Below, piece by piece: positions 6,958-32,521 of a DNA stretch of 64,000 nt. This DNA is from Ghiorsea bivora (lineage in GTDB: Bacteria > Pseudomonadota > Zetaproteobacteria > Mariprofundales > Mariprofundaceae), in the NCBI RefSeq assembly GCF_000744415.1, contig NZ_JQLW01000006.1, positions 62,001 through 126,000 of the forward strand. Direction: 5' to 3'. The position numbers and the translations under genes are program-made. The notes beneath the pieces are model-generated. The model was not told the DNA's origin, made no database searches, and was given only the letters and a program-made list of their open reading frames with translations. Within the stretch, counting starts at the first letter, position 1. Each line of letters starts with the position of its first letter.

Positions 6958-7901
6958 CAAACCTTCCTCACGGCGGTAATATTGAAGAAATTGCCAAACA
7001 GTGGGAATGTGCACCCGCTGATATTCTTGATTTATCCACGGGTTTGCACCCCGCAGGCCCTCCAACATGGTTAGGAAATTGGCTCAAGGAAAACAGTCAT
7101 CTGGTTGGTCATTACCCCGACAGATTCGGGGAACCTGCACGTTCTGCCTTGGCAACATTCATGGGCATTGCCCCCGAAAACATCTTAATCATTGCAGGCG
7201 CACAAGCTGCCATCGAAGTTTTACCCCAAGCATTGCAATGGCAACACATGGCCATCAAACAACCCTGTTATGCTGAACCAATTCGAGCAGCAACACGTGC
7301 GGGTTGTCAGGTGATTGCTGTGGACATGCAGGCTACAACATATCCTGATGCGGATTGTGTGTGGATTACCTGTCCGCACAACCCTTTTGGACACAAAGAA
7401 ACATTCCCTCAACATCGCCATGGTGTCTTGGATGAGTCTTATATGCCTTTTAATGAACGCCAAGCTTTGGGCATATTGTCTGATGTAATTCGCCTTGGTT
7501 CATTAACCAAAACCTTCTGCATTCCAGGGTTGCGTTTGGGGTATATCATTGCCGAACAAACCCACATCCAAAGCTTACAATCATGGCTTCCACCATGGCC
7601 AACATCCACACTTGCAGCACACCTTTTACCCAAGCTGCTTCCCCAAGCTGCGCAACGTGATGCACACATTGTCACATTAAGACAACAAATGCTTGATACA
7701 TTAGCACAGCATAATTGGGAAGTTCAACAAGGTTTTACCAGTTTTGTGCTTGCCAGACCCAAAGACAAGTTGCCCGACTTTGCATCATCACGCATACTTG
7801 TCCGCCGCTTTCCTGAATGGGATAGTTTGGCAGGTTGGTTAAGGTTCGGCTATCCTGCATCAGAAAAAGATTGGCAACGTTTCATCGCAGCACTTACATG
7901 A
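6954..7901 (+). CDS. cobD: L-threonine-O-3-phosphate decarboxylase (cobalamin synthesis)
   Basis: The 315-residue PLP enzyme of the class I/II aminotransferase fold starts with NLPHGGNIEEIA and LDLSTGLHP, typical of the CobD (Salmonella)/CobC (Pseudomonas) family. The PLP-binding Lys186 lies in LGSLTKTFCIPGLRLGY and the ITCPHNPFGH stretch is the substrate-side asparagine loop. It makes (R)-1-amino-2-propanol phosphate, the arm that CbiB attaches, and the two genes overlap by four bases (ATGA). It is shorter than typical histidinol-phosphate aminotransferases and the neighbourhood argues against that alternative. Symbol follows Salmonella nomenclature. Confidence 0.88.
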   Translation: MTNLPHGGNIEEIAKQWECAPADILDLSTGLHPAGPPTWLGNWLKENSHLVGHYPDRFGEPARSALATFMGIAPENILIIAGAQAAIEVLPQALQWQHMAIKQPCYAEPIRAATRAGCQVIAVDMQATTYPDADCVWITCPHNPFGHKETFPQHRHGVLDESYMPFNERQALGILSDVIRLGSLTKTFCIPGLRLGYIIAEQTHIQSLQSWLPPWPTSTLAAHLLPKLLPQAAQRDAHIVTLRQQMLDTLAQHNWEVQQGFTSFVLARPKDKLPDFASSRILVRRFPEWDSLAGWLRFGYPASEKDWQRFIAALT

Positions 7902-7930
7902 TACCATGTAGTGCCAAGGAGTAAGATTGA

Positions 7931-10900
7931 ATGAGCAACATGTTTAAACATTTAACCCAACAACTAAGTTTAGGTTTTGCCGTTGGTTTATCCTTGCTCG
8001 TCACTACCCCCATACAAGCAGCGCCCACAATTGTTGACAGTATTTCAGCCGACCAACTGACTGGCATTGCAAGCAACAATATTTCATCCCTCTATGCAGA
8101 CCATGGTGTTTTATGGATCACAGACAAACGTAATATTGCCTACCAATGGCGTGTTGGCGAAGCACCTAGCGTATTCCAGAAGGGCAATGAAAAGCAAAAG
8201 TTTAACAGTTTAATACCTATCTCAGATCAACGTTTTGTACTTACAGACACACGCAATGCACATTTTTTGGTAAGCACCAAAGATAGTTGGAATAGTTTTG
8301 CGGAAGAAGGGGACCAAGAGGGTCAAATTGACAACCCCATTGCCGCAGCTTGGTCAAAACATGGCATTATATATATTGCCGACGCTGGCAATGACCGCAT
8401 CTCAGCTTTTACCCCCGAAGGCTTGTTTTTATTCACTTTTGGTGATGATGCAGACAAAAATTCAGAAGACCTAAACTTAAAACATATCACGCATATTGCG
8501 GTTGACCGTCAAGGCAGAGTCTATGTATTGGATGAAACGGGTGGTGGCAGAATATCCATTTATTCGGCCCAAGGCGAATTGGATACTATCTTAGGCAAAG
8601 ACGAGTTTAAACTCTTTGAGCATAACAATCCTAAACTCACGGCCATGACTGTGCGCCCAGATGGTGTATTGATTATTGCCGAAAAGAAAAGCGGGCACAT
8701 TTTAGAAATTGATTGGGAAAACATGAAAGTTTTGTCTTCTTTTGGCACCAATGGCAAAGGAAGGGGACAGTTTCAACGTATAGGTAGCCTAGCACTGGAT
8801 GTGGACGGTAAGCTGTATGTTGCTGATCAAGGCAATAAAAAAATTGAAATTTTCCAACTGGATTGGCAAGACACGGGGCACCTAAACCTCAAACAAGACC
8901 ATATGAGCATACTGCCTTCTTCCGTATTGTTATCAGCTTGTGAAAAATCTTACATTTATAGTGCAGAACAAATTTTGTGCCTAAACAGCAAAAAAGACAG
9001 TGTTTCTATCCGTTCGCACGATGGTGTTGTGTTACAACAGTTAAATAGCAAGTTTAACGACCCTATTCAGGCTACTTTTGACCAAAATGAACTACTCATT
9101 TTAGATGATAAAGGGGTTAAAGTTTTTGATAAATCAGGAAAATTCAAGTTTGCCTTTGGCAGCAAAGGTCGGCGTGATGGTGATTTGTCCGATGCCTCAT
9201 CCTTAACAGTAACCCCAGATGCTGTTTTTATTGCAGACACAGGCAACAAACGTATCCAAGTATTTAGTCGCAATGGTTTGTTTAAACAGTCCATAGGCAA
9301 TACCAAAGGTGATACGACCACATTAAAAGAACCCACTGCTGTTGCCATTGGCAGCAATGGTCAAATCTATGTTGCCGATGCCGAGCTGCGACAAATTCTT
9401 GTATATTCCAACAAAGGCAAGCTGCTTAAACAATTGGGTTATCCCGCTGAGCATCGCCATGAATTTTTAACCATCCATGACATTATGACAACCCAAGGTA
9501 ATATGTTGTATGCCATGGTTTCTACAGCCAACAACCCACTTAGCGTTTGGGTGTACCATAATAATCAATATGTTTATCGTTTTTCACCAAGTTCCCAACA
9601 GGCACAAGCTGGTTATGACAAACAATGGGCAATGGCAAACACAAAACTACAAGCCAATTCTGTCACCCAATTAAAAAGCTTGGCAAAACAAGCATTACAA
9701 AGCACTGTTAGTATCAACTTAGACCTTAGTGTAGAACCAACTTTAAGTTTATTTAAAGCATCCAGTAGCCTATTTGGTAATGATAACAACTGGATATTTA
9801 ACCCTATCCCTTCCAAGCCCAATGTGATTACCATACTTGATACTGCAAACCATACTCGTCATACATTTATTGCCCTTTTCCCACCTAAAAAGGTGAGAAA
9901 TATTAGCATCACGGGTGATGAAAAACAGGCACACCTACAATGGCTTGCAGCAAGCAATCATTTCACTGGTTATTATAATATTTACGGCCGCAAAGATATA
10001 TCCTCACCATTCCAAATGGTACAACAGAGCATACAACCAGAAATCACACTTGACCGTGAAAAGTTTGCCTTTACAGAATATAGAGTGTCAGCATCTACAC
10101 CACTTGGTAAAAACAGTGCACTATCTACAATTTATCAAGATGGTTTCTGGCTGGGTTACCGTGCTTTTATGGCTCATGATTATGAGCATGCCTTAGATTT
10201 ATTAAGTGAAGCAACATTAGCTAACCCTAAACATGCACAAGCTTGGTTATATCTTGGCAAAACCCAAATGGCTCTGCACAACTTTGATGAGGCTAGTTTA
10301 ACCTTTAAAAAACTTGGTCAATTTACAGATTGGCAACAACAGTCGATTTACCTTCAAGCTGAAGCTTTGATGCAAAAAGAAGCATGGCTGGATGTAAAAT
10401 CTTTGGTTGACCATGCTGAAGCCAATGGAAATATTGATGCCTACTTATACAGTTTATCAGCATACGCATTAATGCAGTTGGATGATGTGCCCAGTGCTAT
10501 TTATTATCTGAGCCAAGCTGTGAACCTTGAACCAACATCACCCACTTGGCATTTAGCGCTCGCCGATGCCAACTTTAAACTGGGTGCTGAGAAAGACGCA
10601 GCAGCTGAATTACTTTTAGCCACGCAACTTGCAGGAAACAACATCAATTCTTGGCTTGAAATTGCTAGAACATATACCAAATATCATATGTATGATGATG
10701 CTATTGTGGCTTATGAACGCGCATTACGCCTGGATGCAAAACACCCACAAGCACTACCAGAACTTGCCAAGCTACATTTGATAAAAGGCAACCTTGCAGA
10801 TGCACGTTCATTGGCAACACGGATGTCGGGTATTCCTAAGCTTAAAAGCACCTCTTATTATATTCTAGGACAAGTCGCACTGGCCGAAGGCAAAGCCCCA

Positions 10901-21549: not shown

Positions 21550-22325
21550 TGGACTTACATCTATTCTCCGTCTTATCTTTTTCCATACTTGGTTTATTAT
21601 TTGGTAGTTTTGCCAATGTTTGTGTGCATCGCATCCCCCGTGGTGAATCAATTGTAAGCCCTGGTAGCCAATGCCCAAACTGTCATACTGCTATTGCATG
21701 GTATGATAATATTCCTCTACTCTCATGGTTGTATTTGGGAAGAAAATGTAGGCATTGTTCCCATCCTATTACATGGCGCTACCCCTTTTTAGAACTTAGC
21801 ATGGGTGTATTATGGGGGCTTATAGCGTGGTATATCCCATTTAACAGTTTGTACTTTGCGCAAGCTATTGTATTGGTTAGTTTATTATGGATTTTAACCT
21901 TAATTGATTTGGAAACATTTTTATTGCCCAATGCTTTAACCTTTCCAGGTATCGCTTTGGGTTTATTCTTTGCTTGGCAAGCAGGTTATATACAAGATGC
22001 TATCATGGGTGCTTTGGCAGGTTATGCTGTATTTTGGTTGGTTGCATGGTTATTTCTCAAAGCCACTGGGCGCGAAGGCATGGGGCAAGGTGACTTTAAA
22101 TTACTTGCCATGTTGGGCGCTTTTATGGGCTGGCAAGCATTGCCATTCATTATTCTTTTATCATCGCTTACAGGGGCAATCATTGGTTCTATTGCACTTA
22201 TATTAAGCAAAAAAGGTCTGCGTGCAGAAATACCCTATGGTCCATATTTAGCAGTAGCAGGTGTGATTTGGTTCTTTTGGTCTAGCCCGATACTCAAAGC
22301 ATACCAAGCTTATTTAGGCGAATGA
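21549..22325 (+). CDS. pilD: Type IV prepilin peptidase / N-methyltransferase
   Basis: The 258-residue membrane protein matches PilD/GspO: the GSFANVCVHRIPRGESIVSPGS N-methyltransferase segment (about residues 19-40), two CxxC pairs (CPNC and CRHC) for zinc, and the two catalytic aspartates of the peptidase in LIDLETFLLPNALT and GQGDFKLLAMLGAFMG. About seven to eight helices. It cleaves the leader of type IV pilins and pseudopilins and methylates the new N-terminus. It starts on the last base of pilR and its stop overlaps the coaE start by four bases, the usual pilD-coaE neighbour pair. Confidence 0.95.
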   Translation: MDLHLFSVLSFSILGLLFGSFANVCVHRIPRGESIVSPGSQCPNCHTAIAWYDNIPLLSWLYLGRKCRHCSHPITWRYPFLELSMGVLWGLIAWYIPFNSLYFAQAIVLVSLLWILTLIDLETFLLPNALTFPGIALGLFFAWQAGYIQDAIMGALAGYAVFWLVAWLFLKATGREGMGQGDFKLLAMLGAFMGWQALPFIILLSSLTGAIIGSIALILSKKGLRAEIPYGPYLAVAGVIWFFWSSPILKAYQAYLGE

Positions 22326-22909
22326 CCCTTTTTTATGGCTTAACTGGCGGTATTGGAGCAGGCAAATCAACTGTGGCCAAGATGTTTGCCGATTGGGGTG
22401 TACCTACCCTTGATTTGGATGAGGTTGGTAAAATATTATTAGATGAACCTCAAGTTCAACAGCAATTAGTTGATGCATTTGGCTTAGAAATACTTCAAGA
22501 CAATAAAATAAACCGAGATCAATTGCGTACTATTGCTTTTCAATCTAAGCAAAACACAAAAGCACTCAATGGCATTATGCACCCTACAATCCGAAAGGCT
22601 GAAATGATTTGGCGTGAGAAACAAAATGCACCTTTTGCCATTATTGAAGCATCCGTTTTGATTGAGTCGGGTGATATAAACCGTATGAGTGGGTTAATTG
22701 TGGTGCTCACGAATATAGGAATACGCAAACAACGTGTGTTAGCACGCGGCAAACAAGATTCATCCATGTTTACAGCTATTCTACAAAAACAGTGTAGCGA
22801 TGAACAACGAAAACAAATGGCTGATTATACCATCCATAACAATAGTGATTTACAAGCTTTACGGCAACAAGTAGACATCCTATACAAGCAATTACAACAG
22901 ACAACCTAA
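22322..22909 (+). CDS. coaE: Dephospho-CoA kinase
   Basis: The 195-residue P-loop kinase has LTGGIGAGKSTVAKMFADWGV at residues 7-27, DLDEVGK near residues 32-38, the IMHPTIRK motif, and the lid arginines in RVLARGK. It phosphorylates the ribose 3'-hydroxyl of dephospho-CoA, the last step of coenzyme A synthesis. The ATG overlaps the pilD stop (ATGA), so the two are translationally coupled. It is the last gene of the plus-strand pil cluster; 144 bases of convergent spacer with two inverted repeats follow. Confidence 0.95.
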   Translation: MTLFYGLTGGIGAGKSTVAKMFADWGVPTLDLDEVGKILLDEPQVQQQLVDAFGLEILQDNKINRDQLRTIAFQSKQNTKALNGIMHPTIRKAEMIWREKQNAPFAIIEASVLIESGDINRMSGLIVVLTNIGIRKQRVLARGKQDSSMFTAILQKQCSDEQRKQMADYTIHNNSDLQALRQQVDILYKQLQQTT

Positions 22910-22991: not shown

Positions 22992-23019
22992 AAAAAAAGG
23001 GAGCCCTAAGGCTCCCTTT
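22992..23019 (-). terminator. Intrinsic terminator of the Cyc2-like gene
   Basis: On the minus strand a stem of GGGAGCC and GGCTCCC closes a four-base loop, with A/T pairs extending it by three, and is followed by a run of seven Ts. It begins about 35 bases past the stop at 23054. The symmetric A- and T-flanks allow some termination in the plus direction too, protecting against read-through from coaE. Confidence 0.9.
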
Positions 23020-23053
23020 CTCAAGTCATTACAACTTTTAGCTTTAAACTAAC

Positions 23054-24223
23054 TTAGATAAGTAGTTCGAAGTCAAGAAGTGTAGTTTTTGTTTTTGATG
23101 CAGGAGTAACACCAAATGCAGAGGTTTTTTCTTCATTGTATGACAATGATACTACAAAGTTTTGGTAAGCTTCCCACTCAACACCAACAAGTGTTTTGTC
23201 AATTGTGAAATCTGCTTTATCTTGACCAAGACCAGCCAAGAAGATCAAGTTATGTGTTGGTTTTACAGTTGCACGGAAAGAATAACCAGTACGGTCACTT
23301 GTAGCTGTTGCATAAACATTTGTAGCAGACTTAGGTGCTGTAGCATAATCAGCAAATACACCGATTTGCATATCGCCTACTTCACCAAATGCTTGAACAT
23401 CAATACCAGTACGTTTAGTATCAATGTTGTTCTGAGAACCCGTTACAGCAATCGCACCAAGACCAACTTCCCAGTCACCTGCTTCTAAGAAGTAGTTACC
23501 ACGAAGTACTGGAGCTAATGTGAATCCAGTTCCAACACCAGTAGCACCAGAAGCAACATCAACCATTGCCAATTGTGCAGCCCATGCGTCAGTACCAACC
23601 CAACCAGTTACACCAACACCACCTGCAAGACCAGCCATTGCACCATTGATTGTTAGTGATTTACCACCAAGCAAACCACCATGTTGACCCCAAACAGACA
23701 TCAATTGAAGACCAGAATCTTCACCGAAGCCATCAGCCCAAATTGTAGCACCAACTTTCATGTCGCCCATGTCCCAAGAATTGAACAATTGAACATTTGC
23801 ATAAGGTTGACCACCGCCTGCAACATCAGCAGCTGCGAATTCAATGAATACACCAGTGTGCTCGCCACCACGACCACCAACCATGAATACTTGGTCAGCG
23901 AAGCCAATTGAATTGGCTTTTGTTGTACCATTATCTACACTTTGAAATTGAGGACGAACCATTGCAGTCCAGTTTACTACTGCTGGAATTGAAAGACCTT
24001 CATCTTCAATCAAAGCTTGGTCTCCAACGTCAGTCAATGCGCCCATTTTAAAAGCACGACCATACGCGTTCAAAGTTGGGAATGATTGGAAATGACATGC
24101 TAGGCAAGCAGAACCAGTTTGGCGTGCAAACGCCGGAATAGCTTCAGAAGTTGTTGGAGCGACTGATACAGAAGCAACAGCAGCAACAGCTAGAGAAGCA
24201 GCAGAAAGAATAATTTTCTTCAT
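23054..24223 (-). CDS. cyc2: Cyc2-like monohaem cytochrome-porin fusion (candidate outer-membrane Fe(II) oxidase)
   Basis: From the ATG at 24223 (preceded by AGGA) the product is 389 residues. A signal peptide (residues 1-28, ending TTSEA) leads directly into IPAFARQTGSACLACHFQ: a single c-type haem site CLACH at residues 40-44, followed by FPTLNAYGRAFKMGA. This block is characteristic of Cyc2. The remaining 320 or so residues are a glycine/alanine-rich, amphipathic-strand-rich region ending in an aromatic-poor LLDFELLI strand, fitting a beta-barrel of about 16 strands. Cyc2 proteins take electrons from Fe(II) at the cell surface. An ATG three codons upstream at 24232 lies inside the AGGA and is less likely. 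Strong terminator downstream; divergent from purL. Role is by family; iron use here is inferred. Confidence 0.82.
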   Translation of the reverse strand: MKKIILSAASLAVAAVASVSVAPTTSEAIPAFARQTGSACLACHFQSFPTLNAYGRAFKMGALTDVGDQALIEDEGLSIPAVVNWTAMVRPQFQSVDNGTTKANSIGFADQVFMVGGRGGEHTGVFIEFAAADVAGGGQPYANVQLFNSWDMGDMKVGATIWADGFGEDSGLQLMSVWGQHGGLLGGKSLTINGAMAGLAGGVGVTGWVGTDAWAAQLAMVDVASGATGVGTGFTLAPVLRGNYFLEAGDWEVGLGAIAVTGSQNNIDTKRTGIDVQAFGEVGDMQIGVFADYATAPKSATNVYATATSDRTGYSFRATVKPTHNLIFLAGLGQDKADFTIDKTLVGVEWEAYQNFVVSLSYNEEKTSAFGVTPASKTKTTLLDFELLI

Positions 24224-24488
24224 GTTTAACATCCTATTGTTTTTTTATTTGGCTCGCCCGAAAGTGAACCAGTGTTTTTTGTTTGCAATTTCCTCCCGAT
24301 AATTCCTTAGGCAAAGCCTTAAGCCTCATTGGTCTCCCATTGCAACGCTGCGAAACATCACCGCAAACATGTCATGCGTCAATTGAGCACTTTAAAACAT
24401 GTGTATTTTTGACACACCTTGTTTTTCTTTAAGTATAGCAACAAAACATGAATGTCGAAATTTATGGTTTAGCCATTAGACTGCCGCC
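24224..24488. promoter_or_regulatory. Divergent promoter region and long leader between cyc2-like gene and purL
   Basis: Plus strand: TTGACA (24409-24414) with TATAGC (24434-24439) 19 bases on, a candidate purL promoter; purL has no clear Shine-Dalgarno. Minus strand: TATACT (24432-24437) occupies almost the same bases, with a TCGACA-like -35 about 15 bases upstream, a candidate cyc2 promoter giving a leader near 200 bases. That leader holds a hairpin around 24308-24322 and a strong GGGAGG (24293-24298) that is not at the cyc2 start; it precedes a 20-codon TTG frame whose TAA ends 2 bases before the cyc2 ATG. Spacings are imperfect, so the exact start sites are uncertain. Confidence 0.4.
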
Positions 24489-27400
24489 ATGTCTGAATCC
24501 AATCCTAACTCACTTATCATCTTAAAAGGTCAAAATGCACTATCTGCATTTCGCGCCAGTAAACTCAGTGCATCACTTGGCACTACACAATTATCAGCCC
24601 ATTACATCTATATCATAGAAACCTCAGCACAGTGGTCGGAACAAAATATAGACACATTAAATAAACTCTTGGGTTGCCAAACACAAAAATTTAGCAGCCA
24701 TGGTATGTATCTCGTAACGCCTCGCATTGGTACGATTTCACCTTGGTCTAGCAAAGCAACGGATATTGCAAACATTTGTGGATTAGATGCTTTAATTCGT
24801 ATTGAACGTGGTATCGCCTATGATATTGAAGGTGAAGAAAACACCATTATACCCTTGATTCACGACCGCATGACAGAGTCTGTTTTACGAACCACTGACG
24901 ACTTAAAGCTATTGTTTCAGCACCAAGCTCCACAGCCATTAACCCGCATTGATATCTTAAAAGACGGACGAAATGCGTTAGAAGCTGCCAACACAACATT
25001 GGGTTTGGCGCTCGCTGAAGATGAAATTGATTATTTACTTGAAAACTTTTTAGCCCTCAAACGTAACCCTACTGATGCTGAATTGATGATGTTTGCCCAA
25101 GCCAACTCTGAGCATTGCCGCCATAAAATCTTTAATGCGGACTGGAAGATTGATGGTGAAACCAAAGACATATCTTTGTTTGGCATGATTCGTCATACCC
25201 ACCAAACATCACCACAAGGCACAATTGTCGCCTATGCTGACAACTCATCGGTGATTGAAGGTGGCAAATCCAAACGTTTTTATCCTGACACAAACAAAGT
25301 CTACCAAGCGCATGATGATGTTACTCATATCTTGATGAAAGTGGAAACCCATAACCACCCTACTGCCATTTCCCCATTTGCTGGTGCTGCCACAGGTTCT
25401 GGTGGTGAAATCCGCGATGAAGGTTCAACGGGCATTGGTTCTAAACCCAAAGCGGGTTTAAGTGGTTTTACCGTATCCAACTTACAAATTCCTAATTTTG
25501 AACAGCCTTGGGAAACCCATCATGGGAAACCTGAACGTGTGTCTTCAGCTTTGGACATCATGTTAGATGGCCCCATCGGTGCTGCGGCATTTAATAACGA
25601 ATTTGGTCGTCCGAATATCAATGGTTATTTCAGAACTTATGAGCAAGAAGTGGCAGGCGAACTTAAAGGCTACCACAAACCCATCATGTTAGCAGGTGGT
25701 GTGGGCAATATTGATGCCCGTCATGTGAACAAAGATGAGGTCCCTGCTGGTTCTTTAATTATTCAACTGGGTGGCCCTGCTATGTTGATTGGTTTGGGGG
25801 GCGGTGCAGCATCCAGCATGGATACCGGTGCCAATGCTGAAAACCTTGATTTTGACTCTGTGCAACGGGGTAACCCAGAAATGGAACGGCGTTGCCAAGA
25901 GGTGCTCGACCGCTGCTGGCAGCAGGGCGATGACAACCCCATTTTATTTATCCATGATATCGGTGCTGGCGGGTTATCTAATGCTGTACCTGAGTTAATT
26001 CATGATGCTGGGCGCGGTGGTAAGTTTGATTTACGCAATGTGCATAACATGGAAACCAGTATGAGCCCTATGCAAATTTGGTGCAATGAGGCGCAAGAAC
26101 GTTATGTGCTTGCCATTGCTCCTGAATCTTTACCGGCATTCACTGCGATGTGTGAACGCGAGCGTTGTTTATTTGCCGTGCTTGGTGAAGCAACTGATGA
26201 TGGGTATTTGCATGTTGATGATTCGCTATTGGGTGATGCACCTGTTGATTTACCGTTGGATGTATTATTGGGTAAAGCACCCAAAATGTTACGTGATGTG
26301 CAACATGCACAGCCTAAATCTACCCCACTACCCAATCATATGAACATCAAAGAAGCAAGCTTGCGTGTGCTTCGTTTACCTTCTGTTGCAAGCAAAGAAT
26401 TCCTTATCACCATTGGCGATAGAAGTGTCACAGGTTTGGTTGCTCGCGACCAAATGGTTGGACCTTGGCAAGTACCCGTGTCTGATGTTGCTGTCACAGC
26501 CTCTGATTTTAGCAACCACACTGGCGAAGCCATGGCTATGGGCGAACGTACACCTATTGCTGTGTTGAATGCTGCCGCCTCTGGGCGTATGGCAGTAGGC
26601 GAAGCTTTAACCAATATTGCTGCGGCATCTATTGCGAAGCTGGGTGATATTAAATTATCCGCCAATTGGATGGCAGCTTGTGGTCATGAGGGTGAAGATG
26701 CTGCATTGTATGATACAGTTAAAGCTGTAGGTATGGAATTATGCCCTGCTTTAGGCATTTCTATCCCCGTAGGTAAAGACTCTTTATCCATGAAATCCAC
26801 ATGGTTTGAAGGCGAAACCAAAAAAGAAGTGGTTTCTCCACTTTCACTGGTTGTATCTGCTTTTGCACCCGTCACGGATATTCGCAAAACACTTACCCCT
26901 CAATTGCGCACTGATATGGGTGACACTGACCTTATCCTGATTGACTTAGGTCAAGGTCAAAACCGCTTGGGCGGCTCATGTTTGGCACAGGTCTATCAAG
27001 CCACTGGTGAAACAACGCCAGACCTTGATGATGCATCCATGTTTGCCAGCTTCTTCAATGCGATTCAAAAGCTAAACCAAAATGATTTACTGCTGGCATA
27101 CCACGACCGCTCAGATGGTGGTTTATTCGCAACCCTCGCAGAAATGTGTTTTGCTGGTCGCACAGGCATTGATATTTATCTGGATGAACTAGGGCATGAC
27201 AGCTTATCCATCCTCTTTACTGAAGAGCTTGGTGCCGTGATCCAAATCCAACGCAACCACAGAGAAAAAGTATTGCAAACACTTGAAAAGGAAGGGTTAG
27301 GTCATATCACACATCTCATTGGCAGCACCAATGATGATTTGCAATTGCACATGGTTTACAATCATCAAACGGTATTGGATGAACCTGTTCTAGATCTGCA

Positions 27401-28325
27401 ACAAATATGGTCAGAAACTTCATACCAATTGGCAAGCTTGCGTGACAACCCTGAATGCACCAAACAAGCTTTCGATGCTATCAACAACCCTGATGACCAA
27501 GGTTTATTTGCTGATTTAACCTATGATGTATGTGAAGACATAACAGCGCCCTTTATCAATCATACACGACCTAAAATAGCAGTATTGCGCGAACAAGGCG
27601 TGAATGGACAAGTTGAAATGGCTGCCGCATTTGATAAGGCAGGATTTACATCTGTAGATGTTCACATGTCCGACTTGATTGAAGGACGTGTATCATTAGA
27701 AGATTTCCAAGGGCTTGTCGCTTGTGGCGGGTTTTCATTTGGTGATGTGTTAGGTGCAGGTCGCGGTTGGGCAAACTCGATTCAATTTAACCCACGCGCA
27801 GCCGAAACATTCCAAACATTCTTTCATCGTGATGATGTATTTGCCTTAGGTGTATGTAATGGTTGCCAAATGATGAGCCAGCTCAAAGAAATGATTCCAG
27901 GTGCCGAACATTGGCCAAGCTTTGAACGCAATATTTCCGAACAATTTGAAGCACGTTTACTGATGGTTGAAGTCATGGATTCCCCATCCATTCTGATGCA
28001 AGGTATGCAGGGCTCTAAATTACCGTTGGTGGTGGCGCATGGTGAAGGTCGCGCTATGTTTAAACACGATAACCAACAACATGTTGCGGCATATTTGCGC
28101 TACATCGATGCGAAAGGGCAAGCTGCAACAACTTACCCCGCCAACCCCAATGGCTCACCTGATGGTTTAACTGGATTTAGCTCCACAGATGGACGTTTTA
28201 ATATCATGATGCCACACCCCGAGCGTTTATTCCGAAACAGTCAGTTTTCTTATTACCCTGAAACGAACCAAGAACAAGGTGCTTGGTTACGTATGTTCCA
28301 GAATGCAAGGCTCTGGTTAGCTTAA
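24489..28325 (+). CDS. purL: Phosphoribosylformylglycinamidine synthase (single-chain)
   Basis: The 1278-residue protein is the large one-polypeptide FGAM synthase of proteobacteria. Order: N-terminal PurS-like domain (1-150), linker, two AIR-synthase-type halves with [15 protein letters not shown] near 203-217 and [19 protein letters not shown] near 290-308, and from about 1040 a class I glutaminase domain with the nucleophile Cys in GVCNGCQMM (near 1122) and the His-Glu pair in MPHPERLFR. It converts FGAR, glutamine and ATP into FGAM in purine synthesis. Monocistronic: flanked by the promoter region at 24409 and a terminator hairpin. Confidence 0.97.
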
Positions 28326-28393: not shown

Positions 28394-29116
28394 TTATTTC
28401 TTAATAAAGAATTCCAGCTTGGTATCACTTAATTCAATAATATCACCATCTTTTAATACACGCGGTGAACTTCCAACCACCTCACCATTAACTTTTAACT
28501 TACTTATCCCTTCAAGGTAAGTGATATGGTAACCTGTAGGTCTGCGAGTAATGACAGCCGCTTGTTTACCCACAAGTAAACCCTTCACCTTAATTTTACA
28601 GCCATCACCCTTACCAATACTGGTAAGCGATGATTTCAGCTCAACCACCTTACCCATTAATGGGCCTGAAATATATTGAACCTTAGCCAAAACCATAGGT
28701 GAAGCGATAGAAGGTCTTGCTGATGCACCACCTTGTGTCATCATCTCTTCTCGTGCAGCTGAACTGATAATCATGGTTTTATCCATATCATCTTCCTCAA
28801 CTGGTGCTGCAACTGGACTTTCATTTTCAAGAGCTACAAATGTTAAGGTATGTTTACCCACTGTAATCACATCCCCATTATTCAGGATATGTTTCGATGT
28901 TTCTTGTCCATTAACTAGGGTACCATTGGTACTCCCCAAGTCTTCAAGAATAACTTTTTTACCAATTTTTAATACTCTGGCATGTTTACTACTCACTGCC
29001 AGATTATCAATATGAATTGTATTCTCAGGTTTTCGCCCAATCGTTGTTTCTTCTTGATCGAGCTCAAACTCAGAAATAACCGTATCTTTGAACTTCAAAA
29101 TAAGCTTGGTACTCAT
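28394..29116 (-). CDS. Double-FHA domain protein
   Basis: From the ATG at 29116 (GGAGGG 8 bases ahead) the protein is 240 residues. Residues about 1-95 form a canonical FHA domain: IGRKPENTIHIDNLAVSSKHARV and LEDLGSTNGTLVNG contain the Gly-Arg, Ser-His and Asn-Gly residues that bind phosphothreonine. A linker of about 50 residues with EEDDMDKTMIISS contains threonines that could be phosphorylated. The C-terminal half (about 140-240) is a second, diverged FHA-like fold: IGKGDGCKIKVKGLLVGKQAAVI lacks the Arg and Ser-His. It lies one base after the PP2C gene, so it is most likely the phospho-reader of the kinase module. No membrane segment. Confidence 0.88.
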   Translation of the reverse strand: MSTKLILKFKDTVISEFELDQEETTIGRKPENTIHIDNLAVSSKHARVLKIGKKVILEDLGSTNGTLVNGQETSKHILNNGDVITVGKHTLTFVALENESPVAAPVEEDDMDKTMIISSAAREEMMTQGGASARPSIASPMVLAKVQYISGPLMGKVVELKSSLTSIGKGDGCKIKVKGLLVGKQAAVITRRPTGYHITYLEGISKLKVNGEVVGSSPRVLKDGDIIELSDTKLEFFIKK

Positions 29117-29117
29117 C

Positions 29118-29930
29118 TTATTTCCCTCCAAATAGTCGCGAAAACAAACCTTTCTTACGCGACGTTGAACCTTTGACTCGAATCAATATGACTGAAATAT
29201 TATCTGGGCCACCTGCATCATTGGCCAAATCAATCAGTGTTTGTGCGGCTACATCCAAATGATTTGCATGTTCAATCATGGTCAAACGAATCGCTTCATC
29301 GGGCACCACATCCGTTAAACCATCCGAACACATCATATAAATGTCGCCTACACGTGTAATTTCTTCAACAACATCAGCTTCAACATCTTTCTCAACACCC
29401 AAAGCTCGCGTCACTAAATTCTTAATCGATGAGTTTCGTGCATCTTCAGCAGTAAGTAAACCACGTCGCACTTGCTCTTGTATTAAGGAATGATCTTCTG
29501 TGACGTGGGTCAAGTATTCATCACGTAATAAATACATACGCGAATCACCAACATGTGACACTGCCACCCTGTCACCATAAAACAAAGCAACCACCAATGT
29601 TGTACCCATACCTGCGCACTCAGGTTTAGCTTCGGCTGTTTCAATAATCACATTATTGGCAGTGACTGCTGCTTTACGGGCTAAAACCGCTTCTTTTGAA
29701 AAACCTGTTTCTTCATCAAGTTCACCTTGGGGAAACCTTTGAATGCCATCTTTTAACAAACGCATGACCAAATCCACAGCCATTGCACTGGCTACTTCAC
29801 CAGCATTATGCCCACCCATTCCATCTGCTAAAATTGCAATTCCATTTGCTACATCAATGCCAACACAGTCTTCATTGTGGTCTCTCTTCACGCCCACATC
29901 TGTGACAGCAATCATCTCAAGTGCACTCAT
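29118..29930 (-). CDS. PP2C-family Ser/Thr protein phosphatase
   Basis: The 270-residue protein has the PP2C metal and phosphate motifs in order: DVGVKRDHNEDCVG (about 11-24), ILADGMGGHNAGEVAS (33-48), GMGTTLVVALFYGDRVAVSHVGDSRMYLL (107-135), EDHSLIQEQ, MCSDGLTDVV (around 200-209) and GGPDNISVILIRV near 240. These place the binuclear Mn/Mg site. It is a soluble phosphatase that should remove phosphate from Thr/Ser residues placed by the neighbouring kinase; the genes overlap by four bases (ATGA). The basic C-terminal tail KGSTSRKKGLFSRLFGGK is an unusual addition of unknown role. Confidence 0.93.
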   Translation of the reverse strand: MSALEMIAVTDVGVKRDHNEDCVGIDVANGIAILADGMGGHNAGEVASAMAVDLVMRLLKDGIQRFPQGELDEETGFSKEAVLARKAAVTANNVIIETAEAKPECAGMGTTLVVALFYGDRVAVSHVGDSRMYLLRDEYLTHVTEDHSLIQEQVRRGLLTAEDARNSSIKNLVTRALGVEKDVEADVVEEITRVGDIYMMCSDGLTDVVPDEAIRLTMIEHANHLDVAAQTLIDLANDAGGPDNISVILIRVKGSTSRKKGLFSRLFGGK

Positions 29931-32521
29931 TTCTTACCATCCTTTGCCGCCATTACTTTCAGGCATGCAATAATTCCTCGAATTACTGCACCACCATTGG
30001 GCAAGCGTTTATCTGGGTTCTTTTCTAACATATCATTAATCAACGTACTTACCTCTTGGGGTAAGTTAGGGTCAAACTCGCGAATATCAGGGTGTGGTTC
30101 ATTGGCAATCTGAAACAATAATGTTGCCATGGAATCCCCTTTAAACGGTCGTTTTCCCACCAACATTTCATACAACATCACACCCAAAGAAAAAATATCC
30201 GAACGCCCATCAACGTGTTTTCCTGAAAGTTGCTCAGGGGACATATATGAAGGTGTACCCAATACAATACCTGTTTTGGTCTTGCTTGATGCAGTAATAC
30301 GCGCAATACCAAAATCCGTTACTTTTACTGTTTTATCTTTAAGTAACATAATATTGGCAGGTTTAATATCCCTATGCACCACATGTTGCTGGCTTGCATA
30401 ATGCAATGCTTCTGCCACTTTGCCAACAATCTTTAAGGTTGCCATTTGCGGCAATAGCTTGCCTTTTTTCGTATATGGTGCCAAATCAGTACCATCCAAA
30501 TATTCCATAGCGATAAAAGCAAGGTCATGTTCTTCACCTGCATCATACATGGTGACAATATTCGGGTGATTTAACATACCAGCCGTTTCTGCTTCACGAA
30601 AGAACCTGTCTTTCACATCTTGCAGCTCATCACCCTCAAATTCTTGTGATAATGCCATGGTTTTAATCGCTACATCACGGTTAATTTTCGGGTCTTTACC
30701 CAAATATACTGTGCCCATTGCACCTTTGCCGATTTCCTTCACAATTTCATAGCGACCCAAAGTAGGTTTTGCACCACCCGTAATCATCAGGGTTCCCATA
30801 CCGCCACCTGCACCACTACCACCAAACACCATGGATTCCCCAGCATCTTTGGTGCGCTCCATACGCTGTTTCACATCTTTGAATTTAGGATTATGCTCTA
30901 AAATGTACTCATAAACTGCCGCTGCTTTATTAAACTGACGTTTACGTTCAAAATCGAGGGCTAAGGTATACATACCCTCTAAAATATCATCTGCTGGTGG
31001 ACATTTTTTAAACTTATCAAAAGCCATGTCCAACATGCCTTGACTCTGAAAGGACAAGGCTAACATTTTATTGGTTTCAGCAGATTCTGATGAAATCTTT
31101 GCTCTATCATCTTCACTGGCAGAGAAGCGTTTAATGGTTAAAATCACATAACCCACAAGCAATAGGCTTGCAGCAGCAATGGTTGACACCCACAAACCGC
31201 TATCAACCAAAGACACATACGTATAACCAAGAATCACCAACAAGGAGCTAAAAGTTACCAGCGTACCCAACAAGGCACTCAACCTTGGCAAGACAACCGC
31301 CAAGTAGAAACCTACTGCAAGCAATAAGACAAGTCCTACAATACCTGCCCATTCAGGTGTGGTGATAAAACTACTATTAAGCAAACTTTCTATCACATTC
31401 GCATGATAATCCACAGCATTCATATCATTGCTTACTGGCGTTTGGTAACCTTCACCAATACCAACGGCTGTTACACCAATAAGTACAATTTTATCCTTAA
31501 ATACATCTAAGGGCACTTTACCTGCTTTTAAATCATAAAAAGAAACATGACGAAATGCCTGCCCTTCTTTATCACCTAAATCCGCATAAAACTTTGGTGC
31601 AACCTGCATCACGTCATCCGTTGGAATCACCAAAGCACCCAGCTCTACGCTCTGCCCTATATTCACCAACACATCATTCATGGTTAGGTTTAAATCATGC
31701 GCCACCATTGCCAATGACATTGACGGCAAGAATTTGCCGTAATATTCAACAATTAAAGGTTCTGAGCGAAGCACACCATCCAAACTGGGCAAAACATTAA
31801 GGTAACCAATACCTGTAGACACTTGGGACAACTTGGCAAAAGGGTAAGATAACTTCACCGCACTAATCGGTGGTGCAGAAGCATCAACATCACCAATATT
31901 TTCAATCGCCATCCGTGAAATATAGGGTGGCAACGTACTATCAGGTCGTCCAAAAGCGTCCCCTGCCTCATAAAACATAGGCATAAATACATTACCCGCG
32001 TGTTGAACTGCTTTCACTAACCTCGCATCGCCATTTTTAGCCATGGCTTCTGCAACAACTTTATCAGCTTGTAATAACTTGGCATCTGCCTGCGCAAATT
32101 TGGCATCTGCTTCTGCTCCACGGCCTTGCGCTGCCAAAGCATCAGCTTCTGCAAGCAATGCATCACCTTGTTCTTGTAAGAGATCTGCCAACTTCAAGGC
32201 TGCATTATTGCCATTATCAGCTTGTTCTTCGCTATAAAAAACATCAACACCAATCATGCGAACTTGCGCTTGGCTCAAGGTTTCAATCATATCCGCCATT
32301 TCTGTGCGAGGCCATGGCCAGCGACCAATTAAATCAATCGATGCATCATCAATATCAACAATGACAATACTATCATCGGCAGGTTGCGCACTGGTTTCTA
32401 AAGCAAAATCATAAACTGAAAACTCAAGGTTTTTAATGATTGATGAATCATACGCAGCAAAAAAGACTAGCGTAAGCACTAACCCCAAAAACCAATCTGT
32501 TTTCCAAAATGCTCTTTTCAC
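29927..32521 (-). CDS. CHASE2-domain transmembrane Ser/Thr protein kinase
   Basis: The 864-residue protein begins with a GTG preceded by AGGGGA. One helix (about 9-25) leads to an extracytoplasmic CHASE2 sensor domain (about 45-380, with VIVDIDDASIDLIGRWPWPR and DKIVLIGVTAVGIGEGYQTP), followed by three helices (about 385-460). A short TPR-like stretch (about 480-560) precedes the kinase domain: GKGAMGTVYLGKD near 597, VAIK, HRDIKPANIM near 713, DFG near 736 and the SPE activation-segment end. All catalytic residues are present. Between about residues 114 and 160 the sensor holds an alanine-rich insertion of EADA/AQAD-type units. It heads an operon with PP2C and FHA genes. Confidence 0.93.
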   Translation of the reverse strand: MKRAFWKTDWFLGLVLTLVFFAAYDSSIIKNLEFSVYDFALETSAQPADDSIVIVDIDDASIDLIGRWPWPRTEMADMIETLSQAQVRMIGVDVFYSEEQADNGNNAALKLADLLQEQGDALLAEADALAAQGRGAEADAKFAQADAKLLQADKVVAEAMAKNGDARLVKAVQHAGNVFMPMFYEAGDAFGRPDSTLPPYISRMAIENIGDVDASAPPISAVKLSYPFAKLSQVSTGIGYLNVLPSLDGVLRSEPLIVEYYGKFLPSMSLAMVAHDLNLTMNDVLVNIGQSVELGALVIPTDDVMQVAPKFYADLGDKEGQAFRHVSFYDLKAGKVPLDVFKDKIVLIGVTAVGIGEGYQTPVSNDMNAVDYHANVIESLLNSSFITTPEWAGIVGLVLLLAVGFYLAVVLPRLSALLGTLVTFSSLLVILGYTYVSLVDSGLWVSTIAAASLLLVGYVILTIKRFSASEDDRAKISSESAETNKMLALSFQSQGMLDMAFDKFKKCPPADDILEGMYTLALDFERKRQFNKAAAVYEYILEHNPKFKDVKQRMERTKDAGESMVFGGSGAGGGMGTLMITGGAKPTLGRYEIVKEIGKGAMGTVYLGKDPKINRDVAIKTMALSQEFEGDELQDVKDRFFREAETAGMLNHPNIVTMYDAGEEHDLAFIAMEYLDGTDLAPYTKKGKLLPQMATLKIVGKVAEALHYASQQHVVHRDIKPANIMLLKDKTVKVTDFGIARITASSKTKTGIVLGTPSYMSPEQLSGKHVDGRSDIFSLGVMLYEMLVGKRPFKGDSMATLLFQIANEPHPDIREFDPNLPQEVSTLINDMLEKNPDKRLPNGGAVIRGIIACLKVMAAKDGKK

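Follow-up and report, generated by a model that had tools for sequence, protein, structure and literature searches.

A probable Cluster 1 Cyc2 cytochrome-porin in Ghiorsea bivora, with a genus-constant leader and a mature part that appears to be exchanged in place

The gene studied here, on the minus strand of the window (the whole stretch of 64,000 nucleotides of Ghiorsea bivora DNA that was analysed), is very probably a cyc2 of Cluster 1, in a Ghiorsea-type zetaproteobacterium, and appears to be a mosaic, with a leader that is constant in the genus and a mature part that has been exchanged at a fixed locus. The organism would then carry the standard Cluster 1 type of Fe(II) oxidase. Extended to the Zetaproteobacteria as a whole, this reading has about an even chance of being right: Cluster 1 cyc2 would be a locus with a constant leader and a variable barrel, at which a genus-specific start and signal segment of ~60–80 bases is kept nearly unchanged in its nucleotides and whole haem-barrel alleles (sometimes together with coaE in Ghiorsea) are exchanged behind it between species and genera. 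The concentration of variation in the extracellular loops would fit selection by phages, predators or iron conditions for new surfaces on what is the main respiratory outer-membrane protein of the cell. That Cyc2 moves horizontally (PMC12442345) and that its porin part is poorly conserved (PMC8406198) has already been published; the literature searched, which was incomplete in coverage, yielded no description of a constant-leader mosaic. If the mosaic is real, cyc2 trees cannot be read as histories of species or of metabolism, even within a genus. Barrel-based markers, whether for amplicons or for read mapping, would then overlook alleles, while the leader would serve well as a marker, and diversifying selection may act on the exposed loops of this key biogeochemical enzyme.

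The host genome is 2.15 Mb in size, in 13 contigs, and its same-genus relatives include contigs of Ghiorsea sp. The gene is solitary, between coaE and purL (Table 1). It starts at the ATG at 24223; a second in-frame ATG lies upstream, at 24232, and is the less likely start codon because AGGA stands just before 24223. An earlier note on this DNA had described a stand-alone gene with a strong terminator. The first part stands, and a hairpin with a 13-bp stem and a T-run does lie 31 bases past the stop codon, but the number of hairpin matches in the cyc2 region was not above that in shuffles, and it is the position of the hairpin that suggests a terminator role. Elsewhere in the window, at 28394–32521 on the minus strand, consecutive genes for an FHA-domain protein, a PP2C-like phosphatase and a CHASE2-like/Ser-Thr kinase (translations read by eye) are likely to form a signalling module.

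Table 1. Features of the cyc2 region, in window coordinates
Feature	Position	Strand	Basis or remark
cyc2 (probable Cluster 1), 389 aa, predicted outer-membrane monohaem cytochrome-porin	23054..24223	-	motifs, model, profile and homologue matches
Putative signal-peptide leader, codons 1–28	24140..24223	-	first 15 codons near-invariant in nucleotides across Ghiorsea
AGGA ribosome-binding site within the conserved TAGGATGTTAAA stretch, 5' of the start codon	24232..24235	-	sequence and alignment
Cytochrome region, residues 29–70 (AxPxFARQT, CLACH, PTL)	24014..24139	-	
Haem c attachment site CLACH, residues 40–44	24092..24106	-	Cys40, Cys43 and His44 invariant (48 sequences)
16-stranded beta-barrel, residues 84–389	23057..23974	-	predicted; most variable in the inferred extracellular loops
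Long third extracellular-side loop, residues 165–201, SVWGQHGG motif (His181)	23621..23731	-	conserved in type a
Terminator-like hairpin 3' of cyc2	22993..23022	-	
coaE, convergent flank	22322..22909	+	50–65% identity among Ghiorsea species, discordant with pilD/purL
purL, divergent flank	24489..28325	+	syntenic in Ghiorsea

The N-terminus of the protein, MKKIILSAASLAVAAVASVSVAPTTSEA, resembles a Sec signal in its n/h/c layout (judged by eye), and is followed by a motif block, AIPAFARQTGSACLACHFQSFPTLNAYGRAFK, that holds the sole CxxCH of the chain. Both the AxPxFAR[QK][TY] motif upstream of the haem site and the PxL motif downstream are present, in the order AIPAFARQT, three residues, CLACH, four residues, PTL. 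The upstream spacing is the same in P0002, a second Cyc2 homologue encoded in the same genome; the literature gives five residues upstream and four downstream, although the upstream counting convention may differ (PMC8406198). His44 is the only invariant histidine in the family alignment of 48 sequences, in which no invariant second axial haem ligand was found. The mature protein has no invariant methionine, and His181, present in 41 of the 48, is absent from Ferriphaselus and from type b (the form carried by three Ghiorsea contigs, below). That the protein is a common porin whose CxxCH is there by accident is next to inconceivable: its barrel does resemble those of the general porins PorB, OmpF and OprP, but the invariance of Cys40, Cys43, His44 and the P-x-FARQTG motif in all 48 sequences refutes this idea. 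The combination that had been read from the sequence at the outset, a signal peptide, a single CLACH and a barrel-like region in one protein of 389 residues, is confirmed, the signal peptide as Sec-like in form and the barrel as a prediction.

An AlphaFold2 model built with the 48 aligned sequences (pLDDT 82, pTM 0.80) places 16 strands between residues 84 and 388, with a long third loop containing two short helices; the predicted barrel (residues 84–389) has ~306 residues rather than the 320 first estimated. The earlier note had also envisaged a haem domain plugging the barrel; this domain is weakly predicted (pLDDT below 50 at residues 8–38), and the model does not place the plug. The best matches among solved structures (VIA-align) were OprB (Z 22.4) and OprO (Z 22.1), followed by OmpT and PorB, and Foldseek returned PorB, OprP (E 4e-10) and Omp32, with OmpF also among the porin matches. 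A sequence search against solved structures gave nothing meaningful. The OprO/OprP, OprB and PorB porins share the 16-stranded barrel and the long third loop, but are only ~10% identical to the window protein and have no haem domain. Published models of Cyc2 from Mariprofundus ferrooxydans PV-1 have an OprO/OprP-like barrel, in agreement with the present one (PMC8406198). When the loops are classified with the two termini taken to be periplasmic, as they are in porins, pair identity is 0.24 in the inferred extracellular loops, 0.56 in the periplasmic turns and 0.74 in the haem region, and the residues inserted in members of the family fall mostly in the inferred extracellular loops, the most variable class. 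The structure model of P0002 was poor (pLDDT 62) and was left out of the analysis.

Searches of Pfam and NCBIfam with the window protein gave no match, and neither library seems to include a Cyc2 model. A profile of the family itself matches 33 of the 39 high-quality zetaproteobacterial genomes, and the open reading frame is not a chance one, because full-length homologues are present in most genomes of the class. Named carriers include Mariprofundus micogutta ET2 (47% identity over the alignment), M. erugo P3 (42%), Mariprofundus sp. EBB-1 and KV, and the gallionellacean Ferriphaselus sp. R-1. The sequence and predicted-structure features, the barrel among them, and the iron-oxidizing habit of such relatives (M. 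micogutta, M. erugo, Ferriphaselus) uphold the identification as a Cyc2, and none of the outcomes that the earlier note had named as refuting it was seen. The suggestion that its 389 residues might mark a distinct short branch does not hold, the full-length members examined having about 371–457 residues; the length also exceeds the minimum of 365 residues for a Cyc2. One contig, L059, has a pair of cyc2 copies, equal in score and ~1 kb apart (G065:C314:4817-6034 and 7043-8260), representing either a tandem duplication or an assembly repeat.

P0002, a protein of 446 residues, is encoded in another part of the genome (L002, G000:C5:353784-355121). Its architecture is the same, with a conserved N-terminal haem motif (FARKYG...CNSCH), but it is only 24% identical to the window protein, is longer, is far more conserved between Ghiorsea species (92–96% in several genomes) and lies beside a gene for an NtrC-type regulator. 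Such a response-regulator gene (NtrC/PilR type) is adjacent in most related loci, which suggests dedicated regulation of cyc2 genes of this type. Against its own profile the window protein (P0001) reached 536 bits, and against the P0002-type profile 40 bits; it did not group with the Cluster 3-type Cyc2 of Zetaproteobacteria. All Zetaproteobacteria OTUs (ZOTUs) are reported to have a Cluster 1 cyc2, and fewer a Cluster 3 gene (PMC7029218). The single-contig genomes G023 and G074 match the P0001 type only, and the Cyc2 of Ferriphaselus R-1 aligns with P0001 over its full length (32%, E about 1e-40) but with P0002 only over ~60 N-terminal residues. Given this distribution, the Ferriphaselus match and the published ZOTU pattern, P0001 is most likely the Cyc2 of Cluster 1, which in neutrophilic iron oxidizers is the presumed Fe(II) oxidase, and P0002 the Cluster 3 protein; the assignment is based on distribution and one homologue from the Gallionellaceae. 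The distribution and the Ferriphaselus match also speak against the longer P0002 as the Cluster 1 copy. The characterized Cluster 3 protein is Cyt572 of Leptospirillum. Four genomes of one genus (G076, G082, G086 and G088, 94–99% complete) have a Cluster 3-type cyc2 without a Cluster 1-type match.

Compared by description, the Cyc2 of M. ferrooxydans PV-1 has a signal peptide, where the window protein has a Sec-like N-terminus, and the same single CxxCH, AxPxFARQT and PxL motifs and 16-stranded OprO/OprP-like barrel (PMC8406198), and both proteins come from neutrophilic zetaproteobacterial hosts. By analogy with this protein, a haem-loaded state, a topology, the oxidation of Fe(II) and a route for the electron can be proposed. 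The Sec signal would be cleaved and one haem c attached at CLACH; the chain would then be inserted into the outer membrane as a 16-stranded porin, with the small cytochrome domain at its periplasmic mouth. Dissolved Fe2+ would enter the barrel from outside and be oxidized at the haem, and the electron would pass to a periplasmic cytochrome. This carrier is probably not Cyc1 but another cytochrome, because ZOTU9, to which Ghiorsea belongs, is reported to lack Cyc1 (PMC7029218). High expression of the window gene is plausible from published data on Cluster 1. The Cyc2 of Acidithiobacillus ferrooxidans (Cluster 2), also compared by description, is likewise a monohaem cytochrome-porin and the Fe(II) oxidase of the published model, but this organism is an acidophile with cyc2 in the rus operon, together with cyc1 and cox genes (PMC10654088), whereas the window cyc2 is solitary. 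A different electron donor, such as another extracellular reductant, an electrode or a mineral surface, with P0002 oxidizing the iron, appears improbable. The genome does hold this second, well-conserved homologue, and Cyc2 homologues also occur in organisms with no known iron oxidation (PMC7029218), but the window type is near-universal in a class of iron oxidizers and has a match in the neutrophile Ferriphaselus. In addition, the Cyc2 of PV-1, a Cluster 1 protein, is reduced by Fe(II), which it oxidizes, with a redox potential of 208 mV that suits neutral pH (PMC8406198), and the expression of Cluster 1 goes up with Fe(II) (PMC7029218).

The first 63 nt of the window cyc2 are 95–98% identical to those of ten other Ghiorsea genomes, carriers of type b included. 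The corresponding leaders of two control genes reach 30–84% (BamA) and 30–98% (Pal), both being mostly below 65%. In codons 2–15, codon identity given the same residue is 0.98–1.00, versus 0.62–0.70 in the mature part. The effect is milder in the early codons of the Cluster 3-type gene (0.83–0.87 versus ~0.7), and there is little or none in purL, pilD and pilR. The intergenic region 5' of cyc2 is poorly conserved save around the ribosome-binding site. No silent leader cassettes were found in the organism's own genome, in which the leader is single-copy (next matches of at most 23 bases), and no near match to it was found in phages. Codons 2 and 6 covary (e.g. between L081 and L085), with AAG accompanied by CTT in 38 sequences and AAA by TTT in 10 (sequences, not events, being counted); these changes would preserve one G-C/A-U pairing if a hairpin formed at the start codon, though the evidence is weak. 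No such RNA hairpin is claimed, as the pair is not predicted by RNAalifold and the stability is not above that of synonymous controls.

On Ghiorsea contigs, cyc2 adjoins purL, and on those long enough the order is pilD-coaE-cyc2-purL. Identities of the mature Cyc2 do not follow those of its neighbours. L063 and L065 have PurL proteins that are 97% identical and Cyc2 proteins that are 69% identical; the window and L065 share 91% in PilD, 92% in PurL, 53% in CoaE and 75% in Cyc2; and in L069 and L070, Cyc2 (88%) is closer than PurL (83%). For 12 contigs, the maximum likelihood trees of PurL and of the mature Cyc2 are each rejected on the alignment of the other gene (AU test, p 1e-6 and 2e-7), bearing in mind that most of the relatives are metagenome bins and that PurL may itself have recombined. 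Measured against BamA, taken as a reference for the whole genome, the mature Cyc2 is 72–73% identical where BamA is 94% and 77% identical where BamA is 58%. Three Ghiorsea contigs (L107, L111 and L113) carry type b, the mature part of which is ~34% identical to the window protein in the two measured (the two mature types being about 35% identical) and groups in the tree with Mariprofundus sp. KV and others, apart from other Ghiorsea. The pattern recurs in cultured Mariprofundus. In this genus, cyc2 is followed by a lipoprotein-like gene and then by trp-like genes; at this locus KV has type b, and type a is found in M. erugo, M. micogutta and EBB-1, the downstream trpD-like proteins being 80–83% identical, and the leaders of KV and M. 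erugo are 97% identical over 63 nt. These results suggest in-place exchange of the mature Cyc2 behind a leader constrained at the nucleotide level. The claim is one of decoupling from the flanks, rather than of a uniformly higher rate: the idea of a barrel more variable than other envelope proteins was corrected by the BamA and Pal controls, BamA itself being 56–59% identical to distant members across the genus.

A doubtful but not negligible alternative is that the leader is held constant only by purifying selection on the start of translation and the choice of codons in a highly expressed gene, with a fast-evolving barrel and no special exchange. The conserved block does consist of the ribosome-binding site and ~20 codons, GCT makes up 88% of alanine codons in the leader versus 49% in the rest of the gene, and the Cluster 3 gene shows its own milder rise in early codon identity. 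Differences in rate, however, cannot alone give a Cyc2 identity of 69% at a PurL identity of 97%, or the BamA comparisons above, the AU tests reject the tree of each gene on the alignment of the other, and type b genes have the leader of their host genus. Most simply, selection on translation initiation accounts for the constancy of the leader and exchange behind it for the discordance; the leader may act as the crossover point. Chimeras of metagenome assembly, falsely joined at the conserved leader, are an improbable source of the mosaics, even though a near-identical stretch of ~60 bases invites false joins and many of the relatives are bins: cyc2 has the expected genes on both sides in five Ghiorsea contigs (L065, L066, L107, L111 and L113), and Mariprofundus sp. 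KV, titled as a genome with 263-fold coverage rather than as a MAG, has a type b gene that follows a leader of the Mariprofundus kind and occupies the trp locus shared with other Mariprofundus. With regard to the flank, CoaE is 50–65% identical among Ghiorsea species in which PilD and PurL reach 91–92%, and the window coaE is closest to that of L113, a type b carrier.
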